DNA of 64,000 nucleotides, from positions 1 to 64,000 of the forward strand of contig NZ_PDWQ01000002.1 in NCBI RefSeq assembly GCF_010211745.1, read 5' to 3'. The notes beneath the pieces were generated by a model. The model saw nothing but the letters and a program-made list of their open reading frames with translations, was not told where the DNA came from and did no database searches. Positions within the stretch are counted from its first letter, which is position 1. Each line of letters opens with the position of its first letter. Both the position numbers and the translations under genes were made by a program. Positions 13,546 through 35,406 of this stretch are shown piece by piece. Origin of the DNA: Pseudoxanthomonas kalamensis DSM 18571. Its GTDB lineage: Bacteria; Pseudomonadota; Gammaproteobacteria; Xanthomonadales; Xanthomonadaceae.

Positions 13546-15731
13546 CGATTCCTCCACGGAGCCGACGAGTCGTCCCACGGACGAGTAGCGCCAGCCGGCC
13601 TGAACACGTCAGTCAGGCCGTTGACACGCGGGATTTGCTCGGTAGATCGGACCAGATCGCCGGACTCGACGGCCGCAGCGAGACGGCTCTTGGCCCAATC
13701 GGCACCGAACCCGCACCGGTTCGATACCTTTCGGACGGTCGCGTACTCCTTGGCCTCACACAGCTCGACCACCGCCCGGATGACCAGGCGCACATTCGCT
13801 TGCTCTTTCTCCAGCTTCCGTTCTGCCGCCGCGTCCGCCTTGGCCCCCTGGAGCGACTTATGGACAGACCGCCACGATTTACCCGACAGGTCGGCCGGAG
13901 TGTTTATCTCTACCGCGCGGGGGCCATAGGGGTCCACGTCATCCCAGCGGAAGAACAGTGGCACCGGCTCGGCCGACTTGGAGGACGACAGGCATGCCAG
14001 CAGGGTCACCCGGTCCTTTTCGCCGGGGGCTACCAGTGATCGCAGGACTTCGCGGCTGTCGGCCTCGGGGAACGGGTCGAAGGCCGACCCCAAGTTAACG
14101 GCCAGAAGGGTCTGGCGAGCGTTGTTGACCAGCGCGGTGCCGCCACGGAAGGCCGACTCTGACAGGTCAAGCGTCGGAAGGGCCTTGGCCGCCTCCTGGC
14201 TTGTGTGGTGCGTCAGTACGACGGCCACGCCGGTGACCTTGGCAACGTGCTTGAGGGCCGAGACCAGCACGCGCAGGCCTACGTTGTCCTCCTCGGCGTC
14301 CGAAAGCGTGCTGGCCGTCTCGAAGATGGCCAGCCCAAGCGGACACTCGCGGGCCATCAAGCGCCGGATCGTGTCGATCAGGGCCGCCAGAATTGGGCCG
14401 CGCACGGGTTGCCGGCCTTCCAGCCGCACAATCTCGCGCCAGCCGGCAAGCAGCTCGCCGTGAAGGTCGGGGACGATGATATTGGACTGTAGTCGGGCGG
14501 CGTCGTCCGCCGGAAGGCGAGAGCGTTGGGCCTGCACCTTTCGGGCGTACTGGGCGCGGTCGTCCTCGGCCGAGTAAATCATCACGCTACCGACTTCGAC
14601 CGGAGCCATGCCGCCCAGCGCCCAGCCAAGCGCGAAGTGTTTGGCAATGGCCGTGATCACGGTCGTCTTGCCCTCGCGTCCGGGGGCGGCAAGCACGGTA
14701 ACCTCGCCAGCCGGGAACAAGCCGCGCTTTCCGTCCGGTGCCATGAAGGCGTGCGGGTGCGGGATGGCAGCGGCGTCGAACTCAGCATCGGTGAACGGAG
14801 TCGCGGCCTCATCCAGTGCGGAACCGATGCTGGCGACAATGGCGGTCGGCTGCGTGGGGGGCGCACTGGAGGATGGGACCACTCCGGACAGTGGATTCAG
14901 CCAACCGTGCCGGCTGGCCGCCGCGAACACGGCCTGATAGCCGGTATGGTCGGCCGTGAAGCTGTCCCACACACGGGCCGCGTCGGCCGGATCGTACTTG
15001 TCGGACTGCTGCGACCACTCGACCCACAGGGCGCGTCCGCGTTCTCCAAGTTTCTTGAGCCGTTGACCGTTGGCAACCCATAGGTCGCGATCATCCGCCC
15101 GCATGGAAGCCAGGGCACTGCGCAGATCGGCCGCAGTGCGAGGGTCCATGTACTCGGTTACGTTGTCCGGAGTCGGGGCTGCGTTCGGGGCGTGGCGTGG
15201 CGCTAGAGTCCTGGTCACGTAGTCGTGCAGGTCGATGGGTTCGCCAAGCCCTGCGCCCTCGCCCGTGACTGTGAAGAACCGGCCGGCGCTGTATGCCTCT
15301 ATTCCTGATCCGTTGGAGCCAAGGGCTGGAAATGGGCGGCCATACCCGATTGCATGGAGGCCGTTTCCTGACGGACTGGACTCGGTGTAACCGGGCAGTC
15401 CGTCGTCGGCCAACAGGGCAAGCTCAGGACGGCTTGGCAGGTCATCCAAGTCGATCCCCTGCCAATGGCCCCCGGTTCCGTCGGGCCCAAGGGCAAACCC
15501 GAGTCCTGTGTATTGCCCTGATGCCAAGGCATCGCAGGCGTCCACAAATGAGGCGAGTTGCGCAATGTCGGCAGCGTCGTCCAGTCGCCCGTGCCGGGGC
15601 TTGCCGTTGGCGTAGAACGGAACCTTCCGGGGCTTCTTGTCAGGGACGGGAATGCTTCGCCATACCAGCCAGCGACGCGCATCACGCATCGATTCGGGGA
15701 GGGTGTCGGCGTCGAGTTCGGCCGTGATCAC
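13500..15731 (-). CDS. Primase-helicase (AEP-like N-terminus, RepA/AAA_25 helicase)
   Basis: A 743-residue replication protein. The N-terminal third looks like a phage prim-pol-type domain (RRWLVWRSIP, then WQGIDLDDLPS with the metal-binding Asp pair, SSPSGNGLHAIGYG and AGRFFTVTG). The central part is a RecA-fold helicase of the RepA type with Walker A AAPGREGKTT near residue 350, Walker B-like LGLAIFETA and the VVLTHHTS sensor. A C-terminal helical DNA-binding region follows (VRKVSNRCGFGADWAKSRL). It is the first large gene after the CII-like regulator and probably unwinds and primes at the adjacent iteron cluster. Confidence 0.82.
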   Translation of the reverse strand: MITAELDADTLPESMRDARRWLVWRSIPVPDKKPRKVPFYANGKPRHGRLDDAADIAQLASFVDACDALASGQYTGLGFALGPDGTGGHWQGIDLDDLPSRPELALLADDGLPGYTESSPSGNGLHAIGYGRPFPALGSNGSGIEAYSAGRFFTVTGEGAGLGEPIDLHDYVTRTLAPRHAPNAAPTPDNVTEYMDPRTAADLRSALASMRADDRDLWVANGQRLKKLGERGRALWVEWSQQSDKYDPADAARVWDSFTADHTGYQAVFAAASRHGWLNPLSGVVPSSSAPPTQPTAIVASIGSALDEAATPFTDAEFDAAAIPHPHAFMAPDGKRGLFPAGEVTVLAAPGREGKTTVITAIAKHFALGWALGGMAPVEVGSVMIYSAEDDRAQYARKVQAQRSRLPADDAARLQSNIIVPDLHGELLAGWREIVRLEGRQPVRGPILAALIDTIRRLMARECPLGLAIFETASTLSDAEEDNVGLRVLVSALKHVAKVTGVAVVLTHHTSQEAAKALPTLDLSESAFRGGTALVNNARQTLLAVNLGSAFDPFPEADSREVLRSLVAPGEKDRVTLLACLSSSKSAEPVPLFFRWDDVDPYGPRAVEINTPADLSGKSWRSVHKSLQGAKADAAAERKLEKEQANVRLVIRAVVELCEAKEYATVRKVSNRCGFGADWAKSRLAAAVESGDLVRSTEQIPRVNGLTDVFRPAGATRPWDDSSAPWRNRPVGSYSEKPTGDYK

Positions 15732-16111
15732 GACGCAGCAATCGCCATCCGCTTCTGAAGGACTTCCAGCGCCTTCACGGCCGACACGAACTCTCGCTGA
15801 AGCTGGGCCGCCTCGTCCTCCGGGTTCAGGGGCTGCGGCTCGGTGTAGCCGGCGTCACGCGCCTCGTAGTGGGCCAGGATGTGAACCCCCGACTGCCGCG
15901 CGGTGCGCCGGATCAGGCGCAACTCGCCCAGGTCCAGCTTTTCCCGCTTGTCGGTGTTGAGGCAGGCGGCCAGCTTGCGGCCGGCATCGTCTGCCGGCAT
16001 GGCTGGCCAGAGCATGTTCCCCACCTGCTTGAAGCCACCAAGTGCCGTCACGCAGTCGCGGATGGCGTCCTCGTAAGTGTCGTAAAACAAAGGGATTTGT
16101 GCGCTTGTCAC
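15728..16111 (-). CDS. CII-like phage regulatory protein
   Basis: A 127-residue protein resembling the CP76/CII-type regulator family. It has an N-terminal helix-turn-helix region (EDAIRDCVTALGGFKQVGNMLWPAM), then LNTDKREKLDLGELRLIRRTARQ, the typical Lys/Arg-Glu-Lys-Leu segment, and a C-terminal helix (AAQLQREFVSAVKALEVLQKRM) likely for oligomerisation. GTG at 16111 is the most plausible start although its ribosome site is weak. It is the second leftward gene after Cro, where lambda has cII. Its stop overlaps the primase start. Confidence 0.6.
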   Translation of the reverse strand: MTSAQIPLFYDTYEDAIRDCVTALGGFKQVGNMLWPAMPADDAGRKLAACLNTDKREKLDLGELRLIRRTARQSGVHILAHYEARDAGYTEPQPLNPEDEAAQLQREFVSAVKALEVLQKRMAIAAS

Positions 16112-16196
16112 TCTCGTTACCCCTGCGGGGGACGGCGTGGGACAACCGTCCGGATGTACAAAAAAAGCCCGCCCAACAGGACGAGCTGCTATGTGT

Positions 16197-16412
16197 TCAA
16201 CCCCAAATATCAGGCCGCAAAGACGCTTTCCGCACGCGGTATCGCCGCCCCCATGTCGCTGTCTCAACCTCGATTGCTTGAGCAAGCTCGGGAGACGGGC
16301 GCTTTCCTCGCCACCCCTGCCCCAACTGCCACAGATAGTCAGGGCTACGTTTCAGACGACGCGCCAATTCGGAGCGCCGACTGGTGTCTGACACGAAAGT
16401 TTCCAGGTCCAT
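16197..16412 (-). CDS. Cro-like HTH repressor
   Basis: A 71-residue basic protein with a helix-turn-helix of the YdaS/Cro type (TSRRSELARRLKRSPDYLWQLGQGWRGKRPSPELAQAIE). It is divergent from the repressor across a region with three operators. The ATG at 16412 has no Shine-Dalgarno sequence and lies two bases after the start predicted from the promoter at 16421-16450, so translation may be leaderless. It is expected to shift the switch to lytic growth. Confidence 0.75.
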   Translation of the reverse strand: MDLETFVSDTSRRSELARRLKRSPDYLWQLGQGWRGKRPSPELAQAIEVETATWGRRYRVRKASLRPDIWG

Positions 16413-16420
16413 GACGGATA

Positions 16421-16450
16421 AGTCTATCCGTAAGGTAGACGTCCTTGCAA
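16421..16450 (-). promoter_or_regulatory. Leftward early promoter (PR-equivalent) for cro
   Basis: On the minus strand TTGCAA (16450-16445) and TAGACT (16426-16421) are spaced 18 bases apart. Operator O1 fills the spacer and -10 box, so a bound repressor would block it. Predicted initiation falls at about 16414, adjacent to the cro ATG. Confidence 0.55.
16422..16440. promoter_or_regulatory. Operator O1 of the switch region
   Basis: Inverted repeat GTCTATC-CGTAA-GGTAGAC with 7-bp arms and a 5-bp spacer, one mismatch from perfect. The left arm and spacing are the same as in the operators at 18236 and 26006. It overlaps the cro promoter. Confidence 0.65.
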
Positions 16451-16457
16451 GGCCCAT

Positions 16458-16476
16458 GTGTCCCCAAGAGGTAGAC
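16458..16476. promoter_or_regulatory. Operator O2 of the switch region
   Basis: GTGTCCC-CAAGA-GGTAGAC, with one consensus half-site and one diverged half-site in the same 7-5-7 arrangement. Its centre lies 36 bp from O1 and 37 bp from O3. Confidence 0.5.
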
Positions 16477-16494
16477 CACACCTATCGAGGGCAC

Positions 16495-16513
16495 GCCTAC
16501 CATTTGGGTATGC
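16495..16513. promoter_or_regulatory. Operator O3, overlapping the repressor start codon
   Basis: GCCTACC-ATTTG-GGTATGC keeps the 7-5-7 layout. It covers the ATG at 16510-16512, so binding would shut off repressor synthesis, as OR3 does in lambda. Confidence 0.5.
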
Positions 16514-17094
16514 GTCCAATCACTGACATCCGGCGCGCCCGACTCCGGCAACTGATTGATGAGTTGTTTGATGGAAATCAGGCCGCGTTCGCCGAGTCAA
16601 TCGGCAAATCAAGGGCTTATGTTGGCTTCTGGCTGGCGGACCCAGCCAAGCCGCACGCAAAACAGATCAGCCACGCAACAGCGCGCGAGGTAGAGGCCAA
16701 GGCGATGAAGCCGGCCGGCTGGCTGGATGTCGATGAGGCGGCGTCGCAGTCGGTGATACCCGACCCGGCGATTCTTGGAATCGCGCTTACATCGGTGGAC
16801 AAGGTTGCCCGAGATCGGTTGATACGCATAGAGGGGCAGATGGGCGTATTGGCTCCGGTCGTGATGTATGCATATGCGTTAGCCATGCGAACCTTCGCAG
16901 GCAAGTTGCCGGTCAGAGGTACGGTGAGGGGCGATAAAGCGCTGGACGATTTCGACAGGAAGGTCGCCGAGAACTTGGGGGAAGGCATTGAGAGCGGATC
17001 ACTCGGACCACTTGAGTACGTTGCTGGAAGAAGCAAAAAAGGCCCTATCCAAGGCAAGGCCAAGAGCAAGGCGGCTGGGCGTGGTCGAACCTGA
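16510..17094 (+). CDS. Phage repressor (CI-equivalent) without LexA-type peptidase domain
   Basis: A 194-residue protein with an N-terminal helix-turn-helix (RRARLRQLIDELFDGNQAAFAESIGKSRAYVGFWL). A helical C-terminus follows with VARDRLIRIEGQMGVLAPVVMYAYALAM and a basic tail (SKKGPIQGKAKSKAAGRGRT). The Ser-Lys dyad and cleavage site of S24/LexA-type repressors are absent, so induction may not use RecA-driven self-cleavage. ATG 16510 is chosen over in-frame starts from 16384 upstream because these would run through the operators. No clear ribosome site is present. It faces cro and precedes two envelope-protein genes. Confidence 0.7.
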   Translation: MRPITDIRRARLRQLIDELFDGNQAAFAESIGKSRAYVGFWLADPAKPHAKQISHATAREVEAKAMKPAGWLDVDEAASQSVIPDPAILGIALTSVDKVARDRLIRIEGQMGVLAPVVMYAYALAMRTFAGKLPVRGTVRGDKALDDFDRKVAENLGEGIESGSLGPLEYVAGRSKKGPIQGKAKSKAAGRGRT

Positions 17095-17173
17095 CGGGAT
17101 CAGGATTGTGATTGACGAATCCGGCGGGCGGGAGCAACGCCAGTTTCGGAACTTAGACCAATTAGGGGACTGA
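16988..17173 (+). CDS. Small hypothetical protein overlapping repressor end
   Basis: A 61-codon frame starts with TTG after a G-rich GGGGGAAGG site and overlaps the last 107 bases of the repressor gene in another frame. An alternative GTG at 17081 would give 30 residues. The C-terminal part (EPDGIRIVIDESGGREQRQF) looks like ordinary protein. It ends one base before the next gene starts. No family is recognised, and translation is uncertain. Confidence 0.4.
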   Translation: MRADHSDHLSTLLEEAKKALSKARPRARRLGVVEPDGIRIVIDESGGREQRQFRNLDQLGD

Positions 17174-17174
17174 T

Positions 17175-17525
17175 ATGAAGATGGCACTGATCGCGCTCCT
17201 TTCTTTGGTAGCGGCGTCGGCGCTTGCCGCTGACGGGTACAAAGTCGCTGGGAGACAAGGCGCTATGGTGTTTGTGTCCGTAGATAAGTCCCAAAAGGAC
17301 AACGAGGACGTTTACAGGATTGCGGTCGCAGAATCCTGCGCCGGGAGAGCAATATGCAACGTCCATTTTTGGGTAGGCCAAGCCGCAAGTAGGTTGCCAA
17401 TGACCGACGCGCAGGTGAACTCAAAGGTCGTCACTTGGCAGCAGAATTTGAATACCGGCCTGCGCCGATGGGTTGTCAATTGCAAGACGACCGATGTATT
17501 TAAGGGTGACCGCGAGTGCGGATAG
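17175..17525 (+). CDS. Secreted/periplasmic protein, candidate lysogenic-conversion gene
   Basis: A 116-residue precursor with a clear Sec signal peptide (MKMALIALLSLVAASALAADG, cleavage expected after ALA). The mature domain of about 97 residues has three to four cysteines, suitable for disulphides (SCAGRAIC and VNCKTTDVFKGDREC). No family is recognised. It follows the repressor in the same direction without a terminator between them, so it should be expressed in the lysogen and act in the periplasm or cell surface. Confidence 0.7.
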   Translation: MKMALIALLSLVAASALAADGYKVAGRQGAMVFVSVDKSQKDNEDVYRIAVAESCAGRAICNVHFWVGQAASRLPMTDAQVNSKVVTWQQNLNTGLRRWVVNCKTTDVFKGDRECG

Positions 17526-17560
17526 CTTGGCGCGCATCCAAAATTGAAACAGGGGGAGTA

Positions 17561-18148
17561 GTGAAGAGGATTGCTTTGATCGGGGTAATGACGGCTGTAG
17601 CCGCCTGCGCATCTACGCCTCCGCCCATGAGCAGAAGTGACTGGGAGGATATCCACGTTCGTCAGTACGAAGGGGTAACCGCCAGAGAAGTTCAAGACGC
17701 GGCCGAGAAGGTATTGCGGCTCGCCGACCATGATTTTTCGTTCCAGTATCCAGACGGAAGGCTGATTGCCAGCAGAAACTGGACGGTGTTCGCTGTGATC
17801 GCCATCACTGGCGGGAAAGATCATTGGACTGTGGAGACGAGTGAGTCAAATGGGGTCACGCGGGTAACTACGACGATAACGCGAGAGTCATCTACGACAA
17901 CTGCCGCGCCAGTTGTTGGTGGATCAGGGGTCGCGCCTGTTGTCGGGTCCACACCTGGCGCGCTGATAACGCAGGGCGCTCCATACCAGCTTTTCTGGGA
18001 GCGGCTTGAGTACACCATTGGGAAGAGGGACGTATGGACGACGTGCGACCAGTTCAAGGGTCGGATTAAGGACTCCACGAGAGCAAGAGACCGGGGGCAG
18101 ATAGATGCTTTATGCGGGATAACCGCAGATGACGTGTACCCACAGTAA
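17561..18148 (+). CDS. Lipoprotein, candidate lysogenic-conversion gene
   Basis: A 195-residue lipoprotein precursor. The signal KRIALIGVMTAVAAC ends in lipobox VAAC, followed by Ser/Thr/Pro. The mature part has a beta-rich core (EDIHVRQYEGVTAREVQDAAEKVL, WTVETSESNGVTRVTTTI) and two cysteines near the C-terminus (WTTCDQFKG, DALCGI). The GTG at 17561 follows AGGGGGAG. It ends the repressor-linked block, which is closed by a terminator. Superinfection exclusion or surface change is an inference from location. Confidence 0.7.
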   Translation: MKRIALIGVMTAVAACASTPPPMSRSDWEDIHVRQYEGVTAREVQDAAEKVLRLADHDFSFQYPDGRLIASRNWTVFAVIAITGGKDHWTVETSESNGVTRVTTTITRESSTTTAAPVVGGSGVAPVVGSTPGALITQGAPYQLFWERLEYTIGKRDVWTTCDQFKGRIKDSTRARDRGQIDALCGITADDVYPQ

Positions 18149-18175
18149 TCCAACGACTCCGAATAGCCGTATCTA

Positions 18176-18200
18176 AAGCCCGCTCCGGCGGGCTTTTTCT
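18176..18200 (+). terminator. Rho-independent terminator after repressor-linked genes
   Basis: Stem AGCCCGC/GCGGGCT with loop TCCG, followed by TTTTTCTTT. It separates the lysogen-expressed block from the next promoter at 18229. Confidence 0.85.
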
Positions 18201-18228
18201 TTGCCTGAAACTTTTTTCCACTGGCCTA

Positions 18229-18257
18229 TTGACAAGTCTATCTTTTGGATAGACACT
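18229..18257 (+). promoter_or_regulatory. Rightward early promoter with embedded repressor operator (copy A)
   Basis: A consensus TTGACA at 18229-18234 and a weak GACACT at 18252-18257 are spaced 17 bases apart. The spacer contains the perfect inverted repeat GTCTATC-TTTTG-GATAGAC (18236-18254), matching O1 in arm and spacing. Positions 18229-18266 are identical to 25999-26036. It should drive the recombination block and be silent in the lysogen. Confidence 0.7.
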
Positions 18258-18298
18258 TACTCCCAAGCCCGCACACACCGGGCACGGGAGACAGACAA

Positions 18299-18496
18299 AT
18301 GGCACAGGTAGTCCAGATCATGCCGTTCCAGTCAGCGGTCAAGCAAGGCCGCCGGATCGGGGTCACGGACAAGGCAGCGGTACGCGACGTACTGGCCGCA
18401 CAGCGCAAGGGTGAGACCGGCGAGACCGTCGCCAGCACCTACCGGCATATCGCTTGGGGGCTGGTGATGAATGGCGGGCGCGGGGGTGCGGCATGA
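18299..18496 (+). CDS. Hypothetical early protein, 65 residues
   Basis: A basic protein (VKQGRRIGVTDKAAVRDVLAAQRKG) with a helix-turn-helix-like centre but no assignable family. The ATG at 18299 has GGGAG eight bases upstream. It is the first gene after early promoter copy A and overlaps the repeat-protein start by 4 bp. Confidence 0.6.
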   Translation: MAQVVQIMPFQSAVKQGRRIGVTDKAAVRDVLAAQRKGETGETVASTYRHIAWGLVMNGGRGGAA

Positions 18497-19635
18497 CCAG
18501 CAAGAAGACGCAGGCCCCGGAAGAGACCATCACCTCCTACAAGGGCTTCACAAAGGACTTCACCTGCATGGGCGGCTCAGAGCCTTTCCAGTACGCAGTT
18601 GACGAGACCTACGAGCATGTAGGAGTGGTTTTAGCCTGCCGCTCGGGCTTCCACGCCTGCGAATACCCTCTCGATGTTTTCGGCTACTACCCGCCCGGTA
18701 TCCTGAGTCGGTACGCCGAAGTCGAGCAGTCTGGCGACATTTCGCGGCATGAGTCAGACAGCAAAGTCGCCAGCAGGAAGATCAAGATCGGGGCCGAGGT
18801 TGGTATCCCCGGCATCATCAAGGCCGCCATCGAATACACCACATCTCGGTGCAACCCCGTAAGGGCCAAGCATTCCACAGGGGACCAGTCGGCCAGTAGC
18901 GCCACGGGGTACCAGTCGGCCAGTAGCGCCACAGGGGACCAGTCGGCCAGTAGCGCCACGGGGTACCGGTCGGCCAGTAGCGCCACGGGGGACCAGTCGG
19001 CCAGTAGCGCCACGGGGTACCGGTCGGCCAGTAGCGCCACGGGGGGCCGGTCGGCCAGTAGCGCCACGGGGTACCGGTCGGCCAGTAGCGCCACGGGGGG
19101 CCAGTCGGCCAGTAGCGCCACGGGGTACCGGTCGGCCAGTAGCGCCACAGGGGACCAGTCGGCCAGTAGCGCCACGGGGTACCAGTCGGCCAGTAGCGCC
19201 ACAGGGGACCAGTCGGCCAGTAGCGCCACGGGGTACCAGTCGGCCAGTAGCGCCACGGGGGGCCAGTCGGCCAGTAGCGCCACGGGGGACCAGTCGGCCA
19301 GTAGCGCCACGGGGGACCAGTCGGCCAGTAGCGCCACGGGGTACCGGTCGGCCAGTAGCGCCACAGGGGACCAGTCGGCCAGCTTGTCTACAGGCTCACA
19401 TTCATCGAGCCAGATCACTCCGAACAAATATGGAGAGAGTATGGCCGCGTCCGCCATTGCGGTTGGCTATGCAGGCAAGGCCCGCGCGCCAATGGGTAGC
19501 GCGATCTATCTGGCAGAGCGAGATGACAGCGGCGAGTTCCTGGCCGTGTTCGCCAGCCGGGTCGGCGACAACGGGATCAAGCCGGATACCTGGTACACGC
19601 TCAAGGATGGCAAGCCGGTGGCGGTGTCCGAATGA
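18493..19635 (+). CDS. DUF7666-type protein with 19 nonapeptide repeats
   Basis: A 380-residue protein in three parts. Residues 1-128 match phage proteins I recall as DUF7666 (SYKGFTKDFTCMGGSEPFQY, CRSGFHACEYPLDVFGYYPP, SRYAEVEQSGDISRHES). Residues 129-299 are nineteen tandem copies of T-G-[D/Y/G]-[Q/R]-S-A-S-S-A. The C-terminal 80 residues (GKARAPMGSAIYLAERDDSGEFLAVFASRV, PDTWYTLKDGKPV) look like a small beta domain. The repeats resemble ice-nucleation or YadA-head beta-solenoids. It has no signal peptide. Function is unknown; it starts inside the preceding gene's stop. Confidence 0.75.
   Translation: MTSKKTQAPEETITSYKGFTKDFTCMGGSEPFQYAVDETYEHVGVVLACRSGFHACEYPLDVFGYYPPGILSRYAEVEQSGDISRHESDSKVASRKIKIGAEVGIPGIIKAAIEYTTSRCNPVRAKHSTGDQSASSATGYQSASSATGDQSASSATGYRSASSATGDQSASSATGYRSASSATGGRSASSATGYRSASSATGGQSASSATGYRSASSATGDQSASSATGYQSASSATGDQSASSATGYQSASSATGGQSASSATGDQSASSATGDQSASSATGYRSASSATGDQSASLSTGSHSSSQITPNKYGESMAASAIAVGYAGKARAPMGSAIYLAERDDSGEFLAVFASRVGDNGIKPDTWYTLKDGKPVAVSE
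18877..19389 (+). repeat. Nineteen tandem 27-bp coding repeats
   Basis: Nineteen units of 27 bp begin with ACA or ACG. Almost all differences fall in three codons: Thr (ACA/ACG), the third codon (GAC, TAC or GGC) and the fourth (CAG or CGG). The other codons are nearly invariant even at silent positions, which points to recent expansion by slippage or unequal exchange. Copy number is likely to vary and to be hard to assemble with short reads. Confidence 0.95.
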
Positions 19636-19997
19636 CCCTTCTATCCCGCAAAGACCCCTATGCACCGGGAAACCGGGTTCTTGCCCACGGCGAGGCGGCG
19701 ACGATCCTGCGCAATCTGGCCGATGGCGTCCACATGATCCACACGGACTACGGCCGGATGCGGATCGCGGACGACAAGGACATCAAGCCGATGCCTCGCC
19801 GCCGGGTCCCGGTCAGCCTGCGGATCACTCGCGCATGGTTTCGGCTGCGGTACTGGCCTGACCTGTATCCAGCCGTGGTGATGTTTCTGTGGGGCGTGGC
19901 GATTGCACTGGCCGTCGCGCTAGCCCCCTACATGTGGGCGCACGCGCAGACCGTGTACGACTTCGGCGTGTTCACGCACTCGGCGGTGAGGGGATGA
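19632..19997 (+). CDS. Hypothetical membrane protein
   Basis: A 121-residue protein with a soluble basic N-terminus (MPRRRVPVSLRITRAWF) and one strong membrane helix near residues 80-104 (AVVMFLWGVAIALAVALAPYMW). It overlaps the repeat-protein gene and the next gene by 4 bp each. No family is recognised. Co-translation with the repeat protein suggests a possible functional link. Confidence 0.6.
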   Translation: MTLLSRKDPYAPGNRVLAHGEAATILRNLADGVHMIHTDYGRMRIADDKDIKPMPRRRVPVSLRITRAWFRLRYWPDLYPAVVMFLWGVAIALAVALAPYMWAHAQTVYDFGVFTHSAVRG

Positions 19998-20209
19998 CCG
20001 CCCTCGCCCACCTGTCAATCGTCCACTGCCCGCCGCGCCGAATGGTGCCGCAGGTGCCGACAAACCGGGAGCGCATTCAGGCGTACCGGGCGCTATCGCC
20101 GGTAGAGCTTGGCAATGGCTTCGATTGGGGGTGGCGCAAGCGGCACGAATACGAACTGTCCGAAATGATGGACGGCCGCGAACGACAAGCAACCGGGGAG
20201 GAACTATGA
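19994..20209 (+). CDS. Hypothetical protein, 71 residues
   Basis: A small soluble protein with central NRERIQAYRALSPVELGNGFDWGWRKRHEYELSEMM and an acidic end. No family is recognised. Its ATG and stop each overlap neighbouring genes as ATGA, placing it in the early recombination operon. Confidence 0.55.
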   Translation: MTALAHLSIVHCPPRRMVPQVPTNRERIQAYRALSPVELGNGFDWGWRKRHEYELSEMMDGRERQATGEEL

Positions 20210-20604
20210 ACTTCGACGAAAAGGCCGCGCTGTACGAGCAGCGCAAGCAAGAACTGAACATTGCGCAGACGCGATTGAATGAGGCGCATGAAGCGCTACT
20301 CGCGGATTGTGTCAGCCGCAATGAAGGAAGCGCAACGACGACCGGGAGCAACTACAAGGTCACGGTCACCTACGGTATGAATCGAACGGTTGACCAGGCC
20401 GCACTCAATGCTTTGTGGGAGCGGTTACCGGAAGGGGCGAGGCGCGTGTTCCCGGTTAAGCATGGCATCGACACGAAGGAACTGCGCTACTGGCAATCGA
20501 GCGAACCGGACACCTACGCGCTGATTGCGCAGGCGATAACTGCCAAGCCGAGTAAGCCGAGCGTGAAGGTGGAGCGCATTGAAACTGCGGCGAATGCCGC
20601 TTAA
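20206..20604 (+). CDS. Hypothetical protein preceding Sak4-like ATPase
   Basis: A 132-residue protein with a predicted N-terminal coiled coil (FDEKAALYEQRKQELNIAQTRLNEAHEALL), a beta segment (SNYKVTVTYGMNRTVDQAALNAL) and a C-terminal Lys-rich strand (KPSVKVERIET). Proteins of this size and layout commonly precede sak4 in recombination modules (DUF7173-like from memory). It lies 11 bp upstream of the ATPase gene. Confidence 0.55.
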   Translation: MNFDEKAALYEQRKQELNIAQTRLNEAHEALLADCVSRNEGSATTTGSNYKVTVTYGMNRTVDQAALNALWERLPEGARRVFPVKHGIDTKELRYWQSSEPDTYALIAQAITAKPSKPSVKVERIETAANAA

Positions 20605-20615
20605 CGGAGAAAATC

Positions 20616-21371
20616 ATGGCAATTTCACTCACTTCAATCTCGCGCACTTCGCGCAACAGCCTCCCGCCGCGCGTGGTGATCCACGGCGATGGCGGAGTCG
20701 GAAAGTCCACGTTCGCCGCCAGTGCGTACAAGTCGATTTTCCTGCCGTTCGAGGATGGCTTGTCTGGCTTGGAGGTTGACGCCTTCCCACGACTGACCGG
20801 ATACCAGGATGCCATCGACGCCATTGCCTCGCTTGCGCAGGGCGAACACGAGTTCGGCACGGTCGTCGTGGATTCGCTGGATTGGCTGGAACCGCTGGTG
20901 TGGGCCGAGGTTGCGAAGGCGCACGGTAAGGACAGCATCGAGGCCATTCCGTATGGAAAGGGATATGTCGAGGCGCTTCCGTTGTGGGCAAAACTTCTCG
21001 ATGGGCTGAACTACCTGCGCGAGAAGCGAGGCATGGCCGTGATCCTGATCGCGCACAGCGAAATCAAGCGATTCGAAGCCCCAGATTCGGAGCCGTTTGA
21101 CCGCTATCAGATCAAGCTACACAAGGGAGCAAATGCACTGGTGCGTGAGTGGGCCGACATCATCGGATGGGCGCACCACGAAACAGCCATCAAGAAGGAA
21201 AACATGGGATTCCAGACCCGAGCCCGTGGCGTGGCAACCGGACGCCGACTACTGCGCGTGGCCGAAACTCCGGCGTGCGTCGCTAAGAACCGCTACTCCC
21301 TGCCCGGTGTGATCCCGCTTGAGTGGGGCGCACTGATGCAAGCAATGCAGCCGCAGCAGCAGGCGGCGTAA
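20616..21371 (+). CDS. Sak4-like RecA-fold ATPase (AAA_24), phage recombinase
   Basis: A 251-residue nucleotide-binding protein. Walker A is HGDGGVGKST near residues 23-32, Walker B FGTVVVDSLDWLE near 80-90, and a RecA-like LREKRGMAVILIAHSEIKRF follows. Sak4 proteins promote single-strand annealing with a phage SSB. The next gene encodes a DUF669 SSB-like protein and then a nuclease, which is the usual recombination set. Confidence 0.82.
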   Translation: MAISLTSISRTSRNSLPPRVVIHGDGGVGKSTFAASAYKSIFLPFEDGLSGLEVDAFPRLTGYQDAIDAIASLAQGEHEFGTVVVDSLDWLEPLVWAEVAKAHGKDSIEAIPYGKGYVEALPLWAKLLDGLNYLREKRGMAVILIAHSEIKRFEAPDSEPFDRYQIKLHKGANALVREWADIIGWAHHETAIKKENMGFQTRARGVATGRRLLRVAETPACVAKNRYSLPGVIPLEWGALMQAMQPQQQAA

Positions 21372-21472
21372 CGACCACGGGGCGGCACCGGCGCTGCCAA
21401 TGACGGTGCAGACGGATTCGACACCCTCGCCCCACCACTTTCAACGAAGCAACCACATAGAGGTAAACAGTA

Positions 21473-21976
21473 ATGGCTAACTTGACCGGCTTTTATGACC
21501 CGAGCGCAGAAATCCCAACCGGGGGCGGGGCATTGCCCGCTGGGTGGTATTTCGCGCAGATCATCGAATCGGAACTCCGAGACAATTACAACAAGGACGG
21601 CGAGGAATACCAATTCACCTACGAAGTCATGGATGGCGACCACAAGGGACGGAAGTTTTGGCACTCCATTGCCCGTAGCGGACCCGATACAAGCCGAATT
21701 GGAAAGGGGCAAGGCGAAATCAATGCCATCACCGCCGCTTGCGGCATCAAAGGCGCTCCCAACGACACCCAGGATTTCCACTACAAACCGCATTGGGTCC
21801 GGCTGTCGTTTGTCGCAGCCGGAACATCATCCAAGTCTGGTAACACCTACCAGAAGGACCGCAACTTTCTGAATGAGTGGAAGCCTGCCAATGATGGCAT
21901 GGCCCCGACTCAGGATTCCCCGCAGCCTGCCACTTCCGCGTCGTCCACCCCGCCGTGGGTCGCTAAGTCGGCCTGA
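21473..21976 (+). CDS. DUF669 single-strand DNA-binding-like protein
   Basis: A 167-residue OB-fold-type protein. Family features are PSAEIPTGGGALPAGWYFAQI, YQFTYEVMDGDHKGRKFWH and QGEINAITAACGI. The C-terminal tail is disordered and Pro/Ser/Thr-rich. DUF669 proteins pair with Sak4-type recombinases as SSB partners. It follows the ATPase gene after 101 bp that hold no gene. Confidence 0.78.
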   Translation: MANLTGFYDPSAEIPTGGGALPAGWYFAQIIESELRDNYNKDGEEYQFTYEVMDGDHKGRKFWHSIARSGPDTSRIGKGQGEINAITAACGIKGAPNDTQDFHYKPHWVRLSFVAAGTSSKSGNTYQKDRNFLNEWKPANDGMAPTQDSPQPATSASSTPPWVAKSA

Positions 21977-22168
21977 TCCAGCCCACGAGTTGCGCGTGTA
22001 TCTCCGAGGGCGGGCCGGCGTCCTGACGCAACAACCGGCCAACTTTCAATGGGGTGAATGCGCAGGCTGATGCGCTGTAGCGGCGCAGGAATAAGCCGCA
22101 TGGGAAACCAGAACGATTCCTGAGCCGGAGATCAGCACCGGCCACCCCACCCAACACCGAGGACACTC

Positions 22169-23254
22169 ATGGCCGCCCTACCGCCGCCACGCTCACAGAC
22201 TGTCGAGGCCATCTATACATGGTGGCAGGGAAAGATGGAGCCGCCGCGCGCCTATCTTGGGGCCAGCGCCATCGGCCGCGAGTGCGATCGGCAACTTTGG
22301 TATGGCTTCCGCTGGGCGACAGGCGGGGAACAGTTTGACGGACGGATGAAGCGGCTTTTCAATCGCGGCCACCGCGAGGAACCCGTGTTCATCGAGGAGT
22401 TGCGGGCCATCGGGTGCACGGTCAAGGACATTGATCCTAGCACCGGGGATCAGTTCCGGTTCAAGGCGGTCGGCGGGCATGTCGGGTGCGGCTTGGACTC
22501 CGTGATTCTCGGCGTTCCGGAGGCGTCAAAGACTTGGCACTTGGGGGAGTACAAGACCCACAACGCAAAGAGCTTTGCGGCGCTTGTGAAGGATGGCGTA
22601 GCAAAGTCGAAGCCCGAGCATTACGCACAGGTGCAGCTTTGCATGAAGCTGTCGGAATTGACGCGGACGCTATACCTTGCCGTCAACAAGGACACCGACG
22701 AACTGCATGCCGAGCGCATTCACTACGACTCCGACTTCGCCGATAGGGTGCTGACGAAGGCCGAGCGGATCGTGTACGCGCCCGAGCCGTTGCCCCGCCT
22801 CTCCGATGACCCAGCATTTTTCAAGTGCAAGTTTTGCCCCGCCTCCCAGGTATGTCACGCATCCGCGCTTCCGCAGGTGTCGTGCCGCACCTGCCTACAC
22901 GCGACGCCAGAGCCGGACGGTGATGGTCGATGGTCGTGCGCGAAGTTCAATTGCGACCTGAGCGTCGATATCCAGAGAGCGTCCGGAGAGCAGTGTCGGT
23001 CGCATCTATACATTCCTGCCCTACTCCACAATTGGGGCGAGGCCGTTGACGCCAGTCAGGAAGATGGCTGGGTTGAGTATCGGGCCACGGATGGCCTTGT
23101 TTTTCGCAACGGACCGTGGGGCGTGACGAGTTTCACCAGCAAGGAGTTGTTCGCTGCGTCGCCGGAGTTGTTGCGCAACGAGCAATTCATGTCTATCAGG
23201 CGAGACACGAACGCAAGGATTGTCGAAGGTTCAGAATGGAAGGATGCAGCCTAA
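22169..23254 (+). CDS. PD-(D/E)XK exonuclease, RecB/Cas4-like, with cysteine cluster
   Basis: A 361-residue nuclease. An early cysteine (GRECDRQLWYGFRW) plus CKFCPASQVC near residues 222-231 form a possible iron-sulphur cluster as in Cas4 and AddB. The active site is VGCGLDSVIL and HLGEYKTH (Asp, then Glu-x-Lys), with YAQVQLCMKL as the QxxxY-type motif. A second Cys/His group (CRTCLH, CAKFNC) follows. It probably supplies resected ends for the Sak4-like recombinase. A 192-bp gap upstream holds no clear gene. Confidence 0.8.
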   Translation: MAALPPPRSQTVEAIYTWWQGKMEPPRAYLGASAIGRECDRQLWYGFRWATGGEQFDGRMKRLFNRGHREEPVFIEELRAIGCTVKDIDPSTGDQFRFKAVGGHVGCGLDSVILGVPEASKTWHLGEYKTHNAKSFAALVKDGVAKSKPEHYAQVQLCMKLSELTRTLYLAVNKDTDELHAERIHYDSDFADRVLTKAERIVYAPEPLPRLSDDPAFFKCKFCPASQVCHASALPQVSCRTCLHATPEPDGDGRWSCAKFNCDLSVDIQRASGEQCRSHLYIPALLHNWGEAVDASQEDGWVEYRATDGLVFRNGPWGVTSFTSKELFAASPELLRNEQFMSIRRDTNARIVEGSEWKDAA

Positions 23255-23535
23255 TGGCACACCACGGATACATGGGAGTAATCGGGAAAACGCCAGTGTC
23301 CAGCATTGCGAACAAGTGCGCCGAGTTCATTTCACGGCCGCGTGCCGTGCCGATGGCGGTATGCGTTGACCCCGCGCTAAGGGTTACGGTCGGGGAATAC
23401 GACGACTCGGTGCCGTCCGATGTGATCGGCGTGTACAACAAGACCATCGGGCGAATGGAGTTGTGGCGTCAGATCGAGGCTGATTTGCGATGCGAATATG
23501 AGCTTCGGATTGGTGGGCTTGGGAGGGTGGCGTGA
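23254..23535 (+). CDS. Hypothetical protein, 93 residues
   Basis: A small protein (MAHHGYMGVIGKTPVSSIANKC at the start; DVIGVYNKTIGRMELWRQIEADL centrally). No family is recognised. ATG 23254 shares its A with the nuclease stop (TAATG), and its own stop overlaps the GIY-YIG gene. Confidence 0.55.
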   Translation: MAHHGYMGVIGKTPVSSIANKCAEFISRPRAVPMAVCVDPALRVTVGEYDDSVPSDVIGVYNKTIGRMELWRQIEADLRCEYELRIGGLGRVA

Positions 23536-24326
23536 TGGCGGCGCGTAGGCGCGGTCTGTACAACGCAATAAGCAGCTATCGGCGAGTATACGACCGATCT
23601 TACATTGAAGATTTAATTTCCAACAGGTCGGAAGCCAACAGCGCACTCTACAACGTTCCAAATTACCTTGTGTTCAGTTGGAAAGAAAGAATGGGTCAGT
23701 GTTTGCAGAGGTACTTTCGCCGGCACCACGACGGGCACTGCACGGTTGGGGCGTGGAATCGGGCAATTGACAAGTACGTGGGAGATTCAGGGATTTTCGG
23801 GCGTGGGAGCGTCATTGCAACTAGGCACATACGTGTAACAGAGGGGACTTACTTCGATGGTTATAGGGACATAACCAGGACAAGGAATCACAGCGAGGAT
23901 TACGAAGATCGCGTAACGATAAGAAATATCGTAGGGAAAAAGCATACGCACACCTACGGCCAAATCCGCGCCCGCATTGCTCGATACCAAAAGTTCCTAG
24001 AGGAACGCGCAAAACGCGACGAGCTTGCCGTCCGGCGCGAAGCAAAAAAAGTATTAAATGCTGCGCAATCCGTTAAGCGATCCCCCGCCCAACTCTACCG
24101 GCACTGGGACAAGGATGGCCGTCTGCTGTACGTCGGGATCGCGTGCAACTTCGTAAATCGTCTGGCGCAACATAGGAACGATTCGGCGTGGTTCCCGCTG
24201 ATTGCAAACGTCACGATCCAGCACTTTGATTCAAGAGAGGAGGCCGCCGCCGCCGAGGTTCACGCGATCCGCACCGAACTCCCGATCTTCAACAGGGCGC
24301 ATAGCGTCATTGATCTGGCAGCCTAA
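23532..24326 (+). CDS. GIY-YIG domain protein with novel N-terminal region
   Basis: A 264-residue protein. The last 75 residues form a GIY-YIG-type nuclease domain: LYRHWDKDGRLLYVGIACNFVNRLAQH (second motif LYVGIA, then Arg in helix) and the downstream catalytic-type Glu in AAAAEVHAIRTELPIFN. Residues 1-150 are Arg/Tyr-rich and unrecognised (SSYRRVYDRSYIEDLISNRS). Base composition is visibly more A/T-rich in the first half than in neighbours, suggesting acquisition. It could be a DNA-processing enzyme or homing-type nuclease. Confidence 0.65.
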   Translation: MMAARRRGLYNAISSYRRVYDRSYIEDLISNRSEANSALYNVPNYLVFSWKERMGQCLQRYFRRHHDGHCTVGAWNRAIDKYVGDSGIFGRGSVIATRHIRVTEGTYFDGYRDITRTRNHSEDYEDRVTIRNIVGKKHTHTYGQIRARIARYQKFLEERAKRDELAVRREAKKVLNAAQSVKRSPAQLYRHWDKDGRLLYVGIACNFVNRLAQHRNDSAWFPLIANVTIQHFDSREEAAAAEVHAIRTELPIFNRAHSVIDLAA

Positions 24327-26002
24327 TGCAACTCCGCCCCTACCAGTCTGCCGCCCTCTCCACCTGCTGGGACTACCTGCGCAACCGCACCGGCAACCCC
24401 GCCATCGTCTTACCGACTGGCGCGGGGAAGAGTCCACTCATGGCGGCCATTGCACGCGATGCCTACCAGAATTGGGGTGGGCGTGTCGGGGTGATCGCGC
24501 ACACCCAGGAATTGGTCGGCCAGAATTTTGACAAATTTCGCAAAGTCGCCCCCGACCTACCTGCCGGAATTTACTCGGCCAGCCTGAACCGCCGCGACCG
24601 ATTCGACCCGATCATGTTCATGCAAATTCAGAGCGTTGCGCACCGGGCAGACGCACTCGGAAAATTCGACCTGTTGCTGATTGACGAGGGGCACCGCATT
24701 CCACTCAAGGGCGAGGGGCGCTATCGCAGATTCATCGAGGGCTGCCGGCGGTGGTCGCCCAATCTTCGCGTCGTGATCCTGACGGCGACCCCGTACCGGT
24801 TGCAGGGTCAAGCCGTCCCGATATGTGGTCCCGACTACATCGCGACCGAAATCGCCTATGAAGCCCGTATCCCCGACCTAATCGCCGATGGCTACCTGTC
24901 TCCACTTATCAGCATTGCGGGCGACAACCCCGACCTTAGTGCCGTCCACCTGAAAGGAGGTGAGTACATCGAGGACGAATTGGCCGACGCCATGATCCGG
25001 CTCGTGGAGCGTACGGCGGACGACCTTGTGCGGCGCGCAGCCGAACGCCGCGCCATCATCGTGTTTTGCGTCAACGTCGCCCATGCCGAGGCTGTACGCG
25101 ATGCGCTGACCCGGCGCGGCGTTGCCACCGGACTCGTCCACGGCGGAACGCCGAAGGGTGAGCGCACCGCACTGCTTGACCAGTTTCAGGACGGCCAATT
25201 GCGTGCGATGGTCAACGTCAATGTGCTGTCTGAGGGATTCGACGCGCCGCATATTGATTGCGTTGTCATGTTGCGCCCTACAAAGTCACCAGGCATGTAC
25301 TACCAGCAAGTCGGGCGGGGATTCCGTATGGCCCCCGGCAAGGCGAATTGCCTGGTGCTGGACTACGCCGGGAACGTGCTGGAGCACGGGCCAGTAGATC
25401 AAATCCGCGTCCGCACGCCACGGCCAGGGAAGGCCGCCGAGGTTCAGGCCGGTAAGGCCAAGCAGTGTCCCGGATGCGAAACTCTGCTGCCATTCGGGAC
25501 ACGAACCTGCCCGGAATGCGGCCACCAGTTCACGCACAGCGCCCCCGACCATTTAGACCGGCCGGTCAATGCGCCCGTGCTATCCAGCGAGCGTGAGCGG
25601 GTTGTGGTATCGCTGCCCGTGTCGTCGGTGAAGTACGAGCGGCACGTTGGCAAGGGCGGGAAGCTGGACAGCATGCGCGCGACCTACCAGTGCGGGCTTC
25701 GCCGGGTGCATGAATGGATCTGCGTCGAGCATGGAGGATTCGCCGGCCGCAAGGCACTGGAATGGTGGATTCGACGCGACCCGGCCGGCGTGCCGCCGCG
25801 TACTGTCGAGGAAGCTCTTGGGCGGGCCTACGGCCTCCCTACTCCCGCCAGGATCACAGTTGACGAGACTGACAAGTATCCGCAGGTGCTTGGGTGCGAA
25901 TGGGATGCCGAGGCCGTCGCGGAACAGCAGGCGACTACGCTGGAAGCCCGCAAGACGCCGGCTTGGCTGGCCGAGGCGATGAGCGGTCTTTCCTCTGCTT
26001 GA
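24326..26002 (+). CDS. SF2 DEAD/DEAH-box helicase
   Basis: A 558-residue superfamily 2 helicase. It has the Q-like start MQLRPYQSAAL, motif I VLPTGAGKS, Ia IAHTQELV, II LIDEGHR, III LTATPYR, IV FCVNVAHA, V NVLSEGFDAPHIDCVVMLRP and VI QQVGRGFR. A zinc ribbon of two Cys pairs follows (CPGCETLL, CPECGHQF), then a C-terminal domain. Relatives are phage replication or restriction-type helicases. The start overlaps the GIY-YIG stop; the end overlaps early promoter copy B. Confidence 0.88.
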   Translation: MQLRPYQSAALSTCWDYLRNRTGNPAIVLPTGAGKSPLMAAIARDAYQNWGGRVGVIAHTQELVGQNFDKFRKVAPDLPAGIYSASLNRRDRFDPIMFMQIQSVAHRADALGKFDLLLIDEGHRIPLKGEGRYRRFIEGCRRWSPNLRVVILTATPYRLQGQAVPICGPDYIATEIAYEARIPDLIADGYLSPLISIAGDNPDLSAVHLKGGEYIEDELADAMIRLVERTADDLVRRAAERRAIIVFCVNVAHAEAVRDALTRRGVATGLVHGGTPKGERTALLDQFQDGQLRAMVNVNVLSEGFDAPHIDCVVMLRPTKSPGMYYQQVGRGFRMAPGKANCLVLDYAGNVLEHGPVDQIRVRTPRPGKAAEVQAGKAKQCPGCETLLPFGTRTCPECGHQFTHSAPDHLDRPVNAPVLSSERERVVVSLPVSSVKYERHVGKGGKLDSMRATYQCGLRRVHEWICVEHGGFAGRKALEWWIRRDPAGVPPRTVEEALGRAYGLPTPARITVDETDKYPQVLGCEWDAEAVAEQQATTLEARKTPAWLAEAMSGLSSA

Positions 26003-26027
26003 CAAGTCTATCTTTTGGATAGACACT
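25999..26027 (+). promoter_or_regulatory. Rightward early promoter with embedded repressor operator (copy B)
   Basis: TTGACA at 25999-26004, GACACT at 26022-26027 and the operator GTCTATC-TTTTG-GATAGAC at 26006-26024 repeat copy A exactly. It overlaps the helicase stop codon and should start the accessory/integration operon. Confidence 0.7.
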
Positions 26028-26054
26028 TACTCCCAACACAACGGAGACCAGCCC

Positions 26055-26447
26055 ATGACCACCGAACACGAAATCCCCGACGCCCTGCCCCGCATTGATC
26101 CGCCGGTTGGGCCTAGTGGCGACAACAAGCCCGTGAACGCGCTGGAGTTGCTGGACAACGCCGCTGAGCAAGTGCGATGCGGGGCCGTCTGCGCCAGCGA
26201 TGCCGAGAAACGGCGTGTCGATGAGGGTATTCGCAAAGCTCGCGACGCCATGAAAGAGCTGATCGAGGCGGCTGGCAAGGCGCAGGACACCAACCGCGAA
26301 GATTATGTGTTGGGCCGCCCCGACGTGTCTGGATTGCCCGAGGCCGAGCGCGCCGTATTCCTGCGCGGCTGGGATGCCGCCTCAGAAGCCGTCTTTCGCA
26401 CCGGCCTCCGCGCCGCCCTCCGCCGCGCGCGAGGGGGTGCGGCATGA
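26055..26447 (+). CDS. Hypothetical acidic protein, 130 residues
   Basis: First gene after promoter copy B. It has a flexible Pro-rich N-terminus and helical remainder (NALELLDNAAEQVRCGAVCASDAEKRRVDEGIRKARDAMKELIEAAG, shortened here by eye to its main helices). The C-terminus is Arg-rich (LRAALRRARGG). No family is recognised. The stop overlaps the next gene by 4 bp. Confidence 0.6.
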   Translation: MTTEHEIPDALPRIDPPVGPSGDNKPVNALELLDNAAEQVRCGAVCASDAEKRRVDEGIRKARDAMKELIEAAGKAQDTNREDYVLGRPDVSGLPEAERAVFLRGWDAASEAVFRTGLRAALRRARGGAA

Positions 26448-26761
26448 GCGCCCAACCGAACGACTACCGCACGAAAGGTCCCGGCGATCTTCCGGGCGAC
26501 CCAAATCATCCGAACAGCCCGGATTACGTGGAGCCGGAATACGGGTATGAGGAGGCGGACGACGATATCGCGGCTGGCCTTGAGGAAGCGGGAGAAGTTT
26601 CCGAGCTTGTGATGGATGTCCGCAACGCGGCGGCTCTGCTTAACTGGATTGCTAACAACGTCGAGTTGCCCGTGTGGGCGCTTCCGGACTTCCGCGCGAT
26701 TGACCGGCAAGCAAGCTCAATCTCTAAACGCGCCGATGAACTTATCGAGAAGTACGCATGA
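26444..26761 (+). CDS. Hypothetical protein, 105 residues
   Basis: The acidic N-terminus is rich in Pro/Asp/Glu (GDPNHPNSPDYVEPEYGYEE). A helical C-terminal half follows (DVRNAAALLNWIANNVELP, IDRQASSISKRADELIEK). No family is recognised. It lies within the rightward accessory operon. Confidence 0.55.
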   Translation: MSAQPNDYRTKGPGDLPGDPNHPNSPDYVEPEYGYEEADDDIAAGLEEAGEVSELVMDVRNAAALLNWIANNVELPVWALPDFRAIDRQASSISKRADELIEKYA

Positions 26762-26776
26762 GCGGAGGAACGAAGA

Positions 26777-26989
26777 ATGATTGACGTGTATATACGCTCG
26801 ATCAACAGCGCAGACTCATTCCGACTAGCGACCCTAAAAAACGCAGCAGAAGTAGACGATCTGCTAATTAACGTCAGGACGCACGGAGTCTACTGCGACG
26901 GCGGCGTTACCATGAAAGTGATTATGCAATACGTGATCGACGAGGAAAACGAAGATGCCTTCGTTGAGTTCATCGCAGGAGAAATGTAA
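26777..26989 (+). CDS. Hypothetical protein, 70 residues
   Basis: A small alpha/beta protein (MIDVYIRSINSADSFRLATL; VTMKVIMQYVIDEENEDAFVEF). No family is recognised. GGAGG lies about ten bases upstream. It overlaps the next ATG by one base. Confidence 0.55.
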   Translation: MIDVYIRSINSADSFRLATLKNAAEVDDLLINVRTHGVYCDGGVTMKVIMQYVIDEENEDAFVEFIAGEM

Positions 26990-27900
26990 TGACCACCATC
27001 CCCGAAGCGGCGGACATTCTTCGAGCGCACAACGAATGGCGGCGTGGTGGAGACGGCCCGCAGACAGACCCGATGCAGCTGGGGATTGCTATTGATGTCG
27101 CGATTGAGGCTCTTTCTGCACCCCTACCTGCCGGCGGGGAGGCGGTGGAGTATATGCCGTTCGGTTACGTTTATCGTGTCACATCTGACACTAGCTCAGA
27201 GCGCGCGTGGAATCTAAACGAAACGGTGTTTTGTTTTGGGGCTGCGCCCGCTAATGGAGTGAAGGGGTCAATCCAGTACCTTAATCTCTACGCCGCCCCT
27301 CAGTCCGCGCCAGAGCCGGACGAAATGTCGCCGGACTTCACTGACACGGCGCGCGCAGCTATTGCGTGGGTTCTCTACCACCACCAAGGCGGAAGCAGCC
27401 CGATAGGACAGCCACTCCGCTTCGCCCTTGGGATGGGCGCGCATGAACAACTCCCTGACTGGCGCATCGCCGAAGCAAAGCGATACGCGGCGTGGGCTGG
27501 CTCCGCCACCGAAAGGTTCCATGCCGCCCCGCAGCCCGCGCCGGCACCGGAGCCTGCTTACGACCGGGAGCTGAGCGCGAGCATGCTGGAAAATCCGCAC
27601 GGTTTCGCGGTTGAGTCGATGCGCGAACAAGCCCGCCTGCTACGTGAAGCCGACAACGCCACCGCACAGGCGCGGACTGTGGTGATGGGTGAGCAGGGCG
27701 GGCCGGATGACGCGATGCTCAATGCGGAGCGGTACGGCTGGCTTCGCGAACACTTCCGTTTTGCGAATGACAGCCTGCATGAGTTGTGGTTTGACGGGTC
27801 TCTTGAACCTAACTGCGGCGGGGTGCCAGCTGATCTTGACCAAGAAATCGACAGGGCCATGCTCGCCGCCGCGCCAGAGCTGGGAGAGTCCAATGCGTGA
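26989..27900 (+). CDS. Mosaic Ea22-like phage protein with APEP linkers
   Basis: A 303-residue protein built of segments joined by Ala/Pro linkers (YAAPQSAPEP near residue 105, HAAPQPAPAPEP near 183). The middle module (YHHQGGSSPIGQPLRFALGMGAH) and the last module (LNAERYGWLREHFRFANDSLHELWFDG) recur singly in other phage early proteins, in the manner of Ea22/Ead-type mosaics. Function is unknown. It overlaps the next gene by 8 bp. Confidence 0.55.
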   Translation: MTTIPEAADILRAHNEWRRGGDGPQTDPMQLGIAIDVAIEALSAPLPAGGEAVEYMPFGYVYRVTSDTSSERAWNLNETVFCFGAAPANGVKGSIQYLNLYAAPQSAPEPDEMSPDFTDTARAAIAWVLYHHQGGSSPIGQPLRFALGMGAHEQLPDWRIAEAKRYAAWAGSATERFHAAPQPAPAPEPAYDRELSASMLENPHGFAVESMREQARLLREADNATAQARTVVMGEQGGPDDAMLNAERYGWLREHFRFANDSLHELWFDGSLEPNCGGVPADLDQEIDRAMLAAAPELGESNA

Positions 27901-30994: not shown

Positions 30995-30995
30995 C

Positions 30996-35311: not shown

Positions 35312-35406
35312 GGAAGAATCCTTCGTCTCGCTTACAGGGTGGGTTTTACGGGGGTTTGCGGGGGATTCTAGCGCGTAATCGGTTACGGCTGCATGCGCCG
35401 GGAGAA

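Follow-up and report, generated by a model that had tools for sequence, protein, structure and literature searches.

The stretch considered here, referred to as the window, comprises the first 64,000 bases of a 516,800-base contig (C84) in the 3.03-Mb, 160-contig genome of Pseudoxanthomonas kalamensis DSM 18571, and it carries a prophage that spans from the contig edge to an integrase gene at 30996-32165, with its left end lying outside the window. In the early region of this prophage there are five palindromes, each made of two 7-base arms and a 5-base spacer (at 16422, 16458, 16495, 18236 and 26006), which are candidate operators of a single repressor, P0001 (194 aa; 16510..17094, + strand). 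Three of them, spaced 36 and 37 bp apart, lie between the repressor gene and the divergent gene of a Cro-like protein, P0002 (71 aa; 16197..16412, - strand). Operator 1 (16422..16440, GTCTATC-CGTAA-GGTAGAC) is 9 bp upstream of the cro start codon and is kept in the relatives L127 and L116 described below, operator 2 (16458..16476, GTGTCCC-CAAGA-GGTAGAC) has a degenerate left half, and operator 3 (16495..16513, GCCTACC-ATTTG-GGTATGC) overlaps the repressor start codon. Operators 4 and 5 (18236-18254 and 26006-26024) are identical, perfect palindromes (GTCTATC-TTTTG-GATAGAC), and each is contained in one of two putative promoter units on the + strand, P1 (18229..18266) and P2 (25999..26036), which run from a TTGACA to about the transcription start and are identical at 38 of 38 bases. 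This agrees with a preliminary description of the locus, which had placed perfect palindromes in two identical 38-bp promoters at 18229 and 25999. That description also listed three palindromes 36-37 bp apart between cro and the repressor; their positions and spacing stand, but they are not equally good, with 16458 and 16495 being degenerate (by hand count, four and five mismatches to its consensus, GTCTATC-N5-GATAGAC).

The repressor has an N-terminal helix-turn-helix and matches the repressor family phrog_12107 with an expect value (E) of 5.4e-10. Both P0001 and P0002 match the repressor family phrog_35 (for P0002, E 3.3e-6), and P0002 additionally has a YdaS match under the Pfam cut-off. 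Residues 1-78 of P0001 match Rep of Salmonella phage SPC32H (PDB 5d50), which is the closest solved structure by sequence (phmmer E 3.3e-5) and ranks first in a fold search with the predicted model of P0001 (E 2.9e-5). Beyond its N-terminus, Rep has a middle domain for dimerisation and a C-terminal one for tetramerisation; in P0001, the sequence match ends at residue 78 and the fold match extends over 183 columns with a root-mean-square deviation of 17.4, where the model itself, built from three sequences, has a mean predicted local distance difference test score of 78.6 and a predicted template modelling score of 0.46. No S24 domain was matched by Pfam in P0001 or in the L127 and L116 repressors, as the preliminary description had said of the first of these, and the one S24 gene of the whole genome lies on contig C105. 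By comparison, Pfam matched S24 in all ten of the longer homologues submitted to it (214-256 aa), which had been picked for length, with L018, L021, L026, L034 and the short homologues left out. A search with P0001 matched four stretches and no relatives in viral_contigs, and among 297 genomes of the family it matched one, its own.

The sites were scored with a matrix built from three sites of L116 and applied to the 64-kb window, where 16422 ranked first, 26006 and 18236 tied at second and third, 16458 fourth and 16495 sixth. The first three scored 21-22, as against best scores of up to 14.8 in 20 random 64-kb sequences, and 16458 (14.2) and 16495 (9.6) are not significant genome-wide, since their scores fall within that random top range. 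The latter two are the sole remaining high scores within 110 bp around the repressor start. Equal strength of all five sites was ruled out by these scores. The consensus of the preliminary description, at up to three mismatches, gave four matches (16422, 18236 and 26006, plus 52900, which is unrelated) versus 0.90 expected, a count reached in 2 of 100 shuffles, and did not recover 16458 or 16495. The operator scan that had been proposed was run as a pattern search on all contigs, in which GTCTAYC-N5-GRTAGAC matched exactly at three places genome-wide, all of them in this early region, with none at one mismatch and eight at two, the last being at noise level because a reversed control pattern gave 14 when up to two were allowed. 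To call the regulon phage-wide was an overstatement, as the matrix gives noise-level matches alone outside the early region of the window.

The same operator is found in two relatives, L127 (IMGVR_UViG_3300025571_000027), whose repressor shares 50% identity with P0001 over 184 columns and whose Cro-like protein shares 76% with P0002, and L116 (IMGVR_UViG_3300028479_000005), for which the values are 49% over 86 aa and 59%, respectively. Both keep the three-site cro/repressor layout, including the site that covers the repressor start codon, and both have an orthologous TTGACA with an operator at the recombination promoter and, at the equivalent terminator position, a stem and T run similar by eye. 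The right half of operator 2, GGTAGACCAC, is identical in both, its left half being poor there also, and the left half and ATG overlap of operator 3 are conserved. At up to two mismatches to the window pattern there are six sites in L127, five in L116 and four in the window, so the window does not hold the largest version of the circuit; the extra sites include one overlapping a TTGACA and one at or just 3' of the VRR-NUC gene (7416 in L116, 3716 in L127). An operator upstream of a Q gene in these two relatives was considered and withdrawn, no homologue of the window's Q-like protein having been detected in either. Further operator-like sites, at 9562-9580 in L116 and 2851-2869 in L127, overlap a TTGAC motif in the leftward (late) direction, and that of L127 stands just before a gene at 2189-2821.

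Upstream of repressor homologues more generally, the exact pattern TANC-N5-GNTA occurs 19 times in 13 of 22 regions; with any one of 12 other spacers it occurs 0-6 times, and none of 200 shuffles gave more than four. The count omits L013, L023 and L029, where the match lies away from the N-terminus, and L008, L012, L019 and L021, which are near duplicates; L014 is the window's own copy, L032 and L033 have no BLAST match, L024 was kept despite a misplaced start, and 80 IMG/VR loci were unused.

A different kind of comparison is offered by phages that share the backbone of the window (in L115, 82% identity for Sak4, 71% for primase and 68% for helicase) and in which no homologue of P0001 or P0002 was matched, namely L115/L125, L121, L155 and L130. 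In L115/L125 the motif is ATGCG-N4-CGCAT, with two sites by cro/repressor and two at the recombination promoter; in L121 it is GGTTACA-N3-TGTAACC, with one site at each place; and in L155 it is CGTAAC-N5-GTTACG, with three and two sites, respectively, where the assignment of sites to the two places was made by eye from lists of open reading frames. Compared with 40 random sequences of the same composition, the motif counts in the own locus were four versus a mean of 0.07 in L115, two versus 0.00 in L121 and five versus 0.03 in L155; for L115 this applies to the exact form alone, the motif at up to one mismatch not being above chance (5 vs 2.34 expected). At the threshold applied, none of these three motifs occurred in any of the other six loci. 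The sites are therefore conserved in position where the repressor is conserved and replaced where it is replaced, which can be read, from sequence comparison, as the distant recombination promoter changing its operator together with the repressor. Just after the helicase of L115, at the contig end (1-1130), small genes are surrounded by repeats that resemble integron attC sites by eye.

The first 31 bases of the P1/P2 repeat have two copies in the 3.03-Mb genome and no others at up to three mismatches, and the exact promoter pattern had no match in viral_contigs. By eye, a GACACT follows the TTGACA after 17 bp, so the operator would fill the spacer between the -35 and -10 elements and overlap the -10. 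The stop codon of the helicase gene, TGA, is part of the TTGACA of P2. In phage Tyrion (L005), a 25-bp stretch is repeated at 96% identity and in the same orientation (34204-34228 and 35374-35398), each copy by an operator, one before the recombination run and the other between cro and the replication genes, and it may represent another promoter unit that was copied.

Around these elements the genes are arranged in several runs. The Cro-like gene is the first of the leftward replication run (- strand) and is followed, at 13500..16123, by a small phrog_24214 gene (15728-16123) and a primase/helicase gene (13500-15731), then by a VRR-NUC gene, a Q-like antiterminator gene (11741..12436; phrog_127, E 1.2e-22) and, farther on, the large terminase gene; the L116 matrix ranking found no operator above noise adjacent to the Q-like gene within the window. 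On the + strand, the repressor gene is followed by two small genes (17175-17525 and 17561-18148), which gave nothing better than E 0.05 in PHROGs and no Pfam match and which, read by eye, may encode signal-peptide- or lipoprotein-like products, and then by an intrinsic terminator with a 9-pair stem and T tail (18175-18196) that separates this lysogeny run from the recombination run (18299..26002). The latter has five assigned genes from 20616 on, for a Sak4-like protein (20616-21371), a single-stranded DNA-binding-like protein (21473-21976), a Cas4-type exonuclease (22169-23254), a GIY-YIG protein (23532-24326) and, at its end, the helicase (24326-26002). In its earlier part, a DUF7666 gene (18493-19635) contains 18.8 copies of a 27-bp tandem repeat (18875-19382) encoding a repeated 9-residue unit, and L124 has a gene piece similar to it. 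The exonuclease-helicase interval, occupied by the GIY-YIG gene in the window, is a gap of 1.4-2.7 kb in five of nine backbone loci with both genes matched, and may be an insertion hotspot. After P2 comes the accessory and integration block (26055..32165, + strand), with two methyltransferase-like genes (28192-28740 and 29106-29654), an excisionase candidate with a weak match (30764-30994, E 0.067) and the integrase gene, from which the 3' end of a tRNA-Lys gene on the opposite strand (32172-32247) is seven bases away.

Taken together, the five sites are very probably operators of the repressor encoded at 16510-17094, which would occlude the cro/replication promoter, its own start region, P1 and P2. 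In this circuit, the repressor would bind as a dimer or higher oligomer and in the lysogen would hold the cro/replication promoter, limit its own synthesis through operator 3 and block both promoter units. Upon release, these units would start together, with Cro and replication genes expressed leftward and recombination genes rightward, while the accessory, excision and integration genes would be expressed from P2 or by read-through from P1; Q would then open the late genes. The release is probably brought about by an antirepressor or another signal rather than by RecA-assisted self-cleavage, because the repressor lacks an S24 domain. That the protein binds and represses at these sites, that it does so by steric occlusion and holds down its own gene through operator 3, and that P2 serves the accessory/integration block as a repressed promoter, is what we infer from this arrangement. 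The preliminary description had a single repressor directly silencing three early operons, and for two of them, the cro/replication and recombination units, comparison among relatives supports direct repression, whereas calling the block after 25999 an operon of its own was an overstatement, the evidence for its control being the identical copy.

Several points weigh against this interpretation. Taken alone, 16458 and 16495 are weak by the L116 matrix, and the L116 sites on which that matrix was trained had themselves been located by a pattern that came from the window and further relatives. Similarly, TANC-N5-GNTA was picked after viewing the same 22 upstream regions in which it was counted, and these are not independent, five of the 22 being epsilon15-type. 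If one mismatch is allowed, the shuffles are exceeded by spacers 0, 6, 7 and 8 as well (48, 45, 36 and 39 sites, with 56 for spacer 5), so the weight lies on the exact counts. The motifs of the backbone relatives were chosen by viewing both places jointly, which favours finding shared motifs, and the TATGCG-N3-CGCGTA-like motif of L130 (two sites by cro/repressor, one at the recombination promoter and one elsewhere) is not above chance, at four sites versus a random mean of 1.27 and a largest value of five, so that L130 gives no evidence. As for the promoter units, their -10 is poor by eye, a consensus promoter scan returned neither P1 nor P2, and an operator follows the helicase in none of the four loci that reach beyond it with an own operator proposed (L121, L125, L130 and L155, covering 1.8-3.7 kb beyond the helicase); L122, L124 and L129 likewise extend past the helicase and were left out of this count. 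Since none of these four has a post-helicase operator, the P2 step comes from this window alone.

That absence bears on the question of whether P2 does anything at all. The copy at 25999 could be a neutral recent duplication, with read-through from P1 alone driving the accessory/integration genes, and the scan for + strand terminator-like sites, which found none from 23097 to 26300, would fit this, as 25999 may then be an internal promoter of one long run; the identity of P1 and P2 also means that selection may have had little time. However, the copy covers just the part from TTGACA to about +1, its flanks differ and a new gene run starts directly after it, and a chance duplication would seldom have such borders, so that we regard a neutral origin as rather unlikely.

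A question of the same kind is which protein occupies the sites. In phage lambda, the repressor and Cro share operators with opposite preferences, and the Cro-like P0002 might likewise be the main ligand of some sites, above all the weaker ones, or share them with P0001 in this manner. P0002, like P0001, matches phrog_35 and is conserved alongside the sites in L116 and L127, but the footprint across repressor homologues tracks P0001 (among those loci, P0002 was compared with the small divergent genes of four epsilon15-group phages, at only 20-24% identity), and such a role for P0002 would supplement repression by P0001 more than replace it; we consider it possible without favouring it. A host regulator might also bind the sites, their conservation then reflecting host control of the prophage, but no further copy of the motif occurs elsewhere in the host genome at 0-1 mismatches, on which ground this candidate was rejected, and three backbone relatives have another motif where they have another repressor, making a host regulator extremely improbable.

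Changing immunity while controlling a distant early promoter requires that the distant operators change together with the repressor. One backbone with four operator types (the fifth, of L130, not being above chance) is a natural experiment on such a change, and the window contributes a class of operator, and a five-site circuit open to testing, for a repressor in which an S24-less tail is combined with a CI-type DNA-binding domain. More tentatively, and with doubts of our own, it could be suggested that a gene block has been wired into the immunity circuit by the copying of a minimal promoter-operator cassette, P2 being a recent paste of P1, and that the backbone swaps its repressor, cro-side operators and the distant operator of the recombination promoter jointly, this last operator then following the repressor from one immunity type to another.

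A known circuit of this kind is that of phage lambda, whose OR/OL immunity has a divergent repressor/Cro pair with three operators, and further operators at the recombination/integration promoter. Judged from sequence only, the window resembles it in the divergent repressor and Cro-like genes, the three sites between them, the second operator set at the recombination promoter and the Q-like gene in the replication run. It differs in having two identical single-operator promoters where lambda has the OL set, and in its repressor, as CI contains a self-cleaving S24 domain and P0001 does not, so that no cI-type cleavage is expected.

Another example is the SPC32H Rep/epsilon15/phiV10 group (Uetakevirus), whose repressors share a homologous N-terminal DNA-binding domain with P0001, although its C-terminal half could not be confidently aligned to them. 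As in the window, the repressor gene and a small cro-like gene diverge from a region that holds three sites of the same class, a TTGACA promoter with an operator precedes the recombination run, and the palindromes are dispersed with a 5-bp spacer. The half-site differs, however, the operator of the group being TTACC-N5-GGTAA, and the window has fewer sites; in the group they also occur near structural, lysis and integrase genes, and, with up to one mismatch allowed, phiV10 has 14 of them and Tyrion 15. In phiV10, eight sites are exact, no other spacer from 0 to 10 yields any, and 12 of the 14 are intergenic, where intergenic sequence makes up 6.5% of the genome. The epsilon15 record annotates seven repressor sites, all seven being TTACC-N5-GGTAA and the cro-repressor ones not among them, which rules out that this operator class was hitherto unknown in the group. 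Operator pairs 62-63 bp apart in L004 (31953/32015 and 35070/35132), with similar pairs in L005, L006, L007, L162 and L163, may point to a fixed repressor-binding geometry in these phages. SPC32H Rep, the structure of which is from Kim et al. (2016), is described in later accounts as a tetramer when bound to its palindromes (PMC9638917), and the antirepressor Ant is said to break this tetramer (PMC9638917; PMC9986798). While phiV10 carries a Bro-N gene, neither the Bro-N nor the ANT family was found in the genome of the window, SPC32H Ant itself not being among the queries. The ZX5 repressor is identical to that of phiV10, and overexpression of this phiV10-type repressor has been described to lower endolysin and holin transcripts by 99.99% and 99.97%, with free phage not found, operator binding being a speculation of the authors (PMC9782041). 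On operators of the epsilon15 group and S24-less repressors, this was the paper that turned up, subscription papers being outside the scope, and its accessible part does not map operators.

The stoperators of Cluster A mycobacteriophages are also similar in that one repressor has several sites across the genome, but they are described as asymmetric, numerous and also stopping elongation (PMC9283540), whereas the sites of the window are few, palindromic and located at promoters. The kind of circuit is therefore already known, and the window adds a member with another half-site, fewer sites, a probably different C-terminal half of the repressor and a duplicated promoter.

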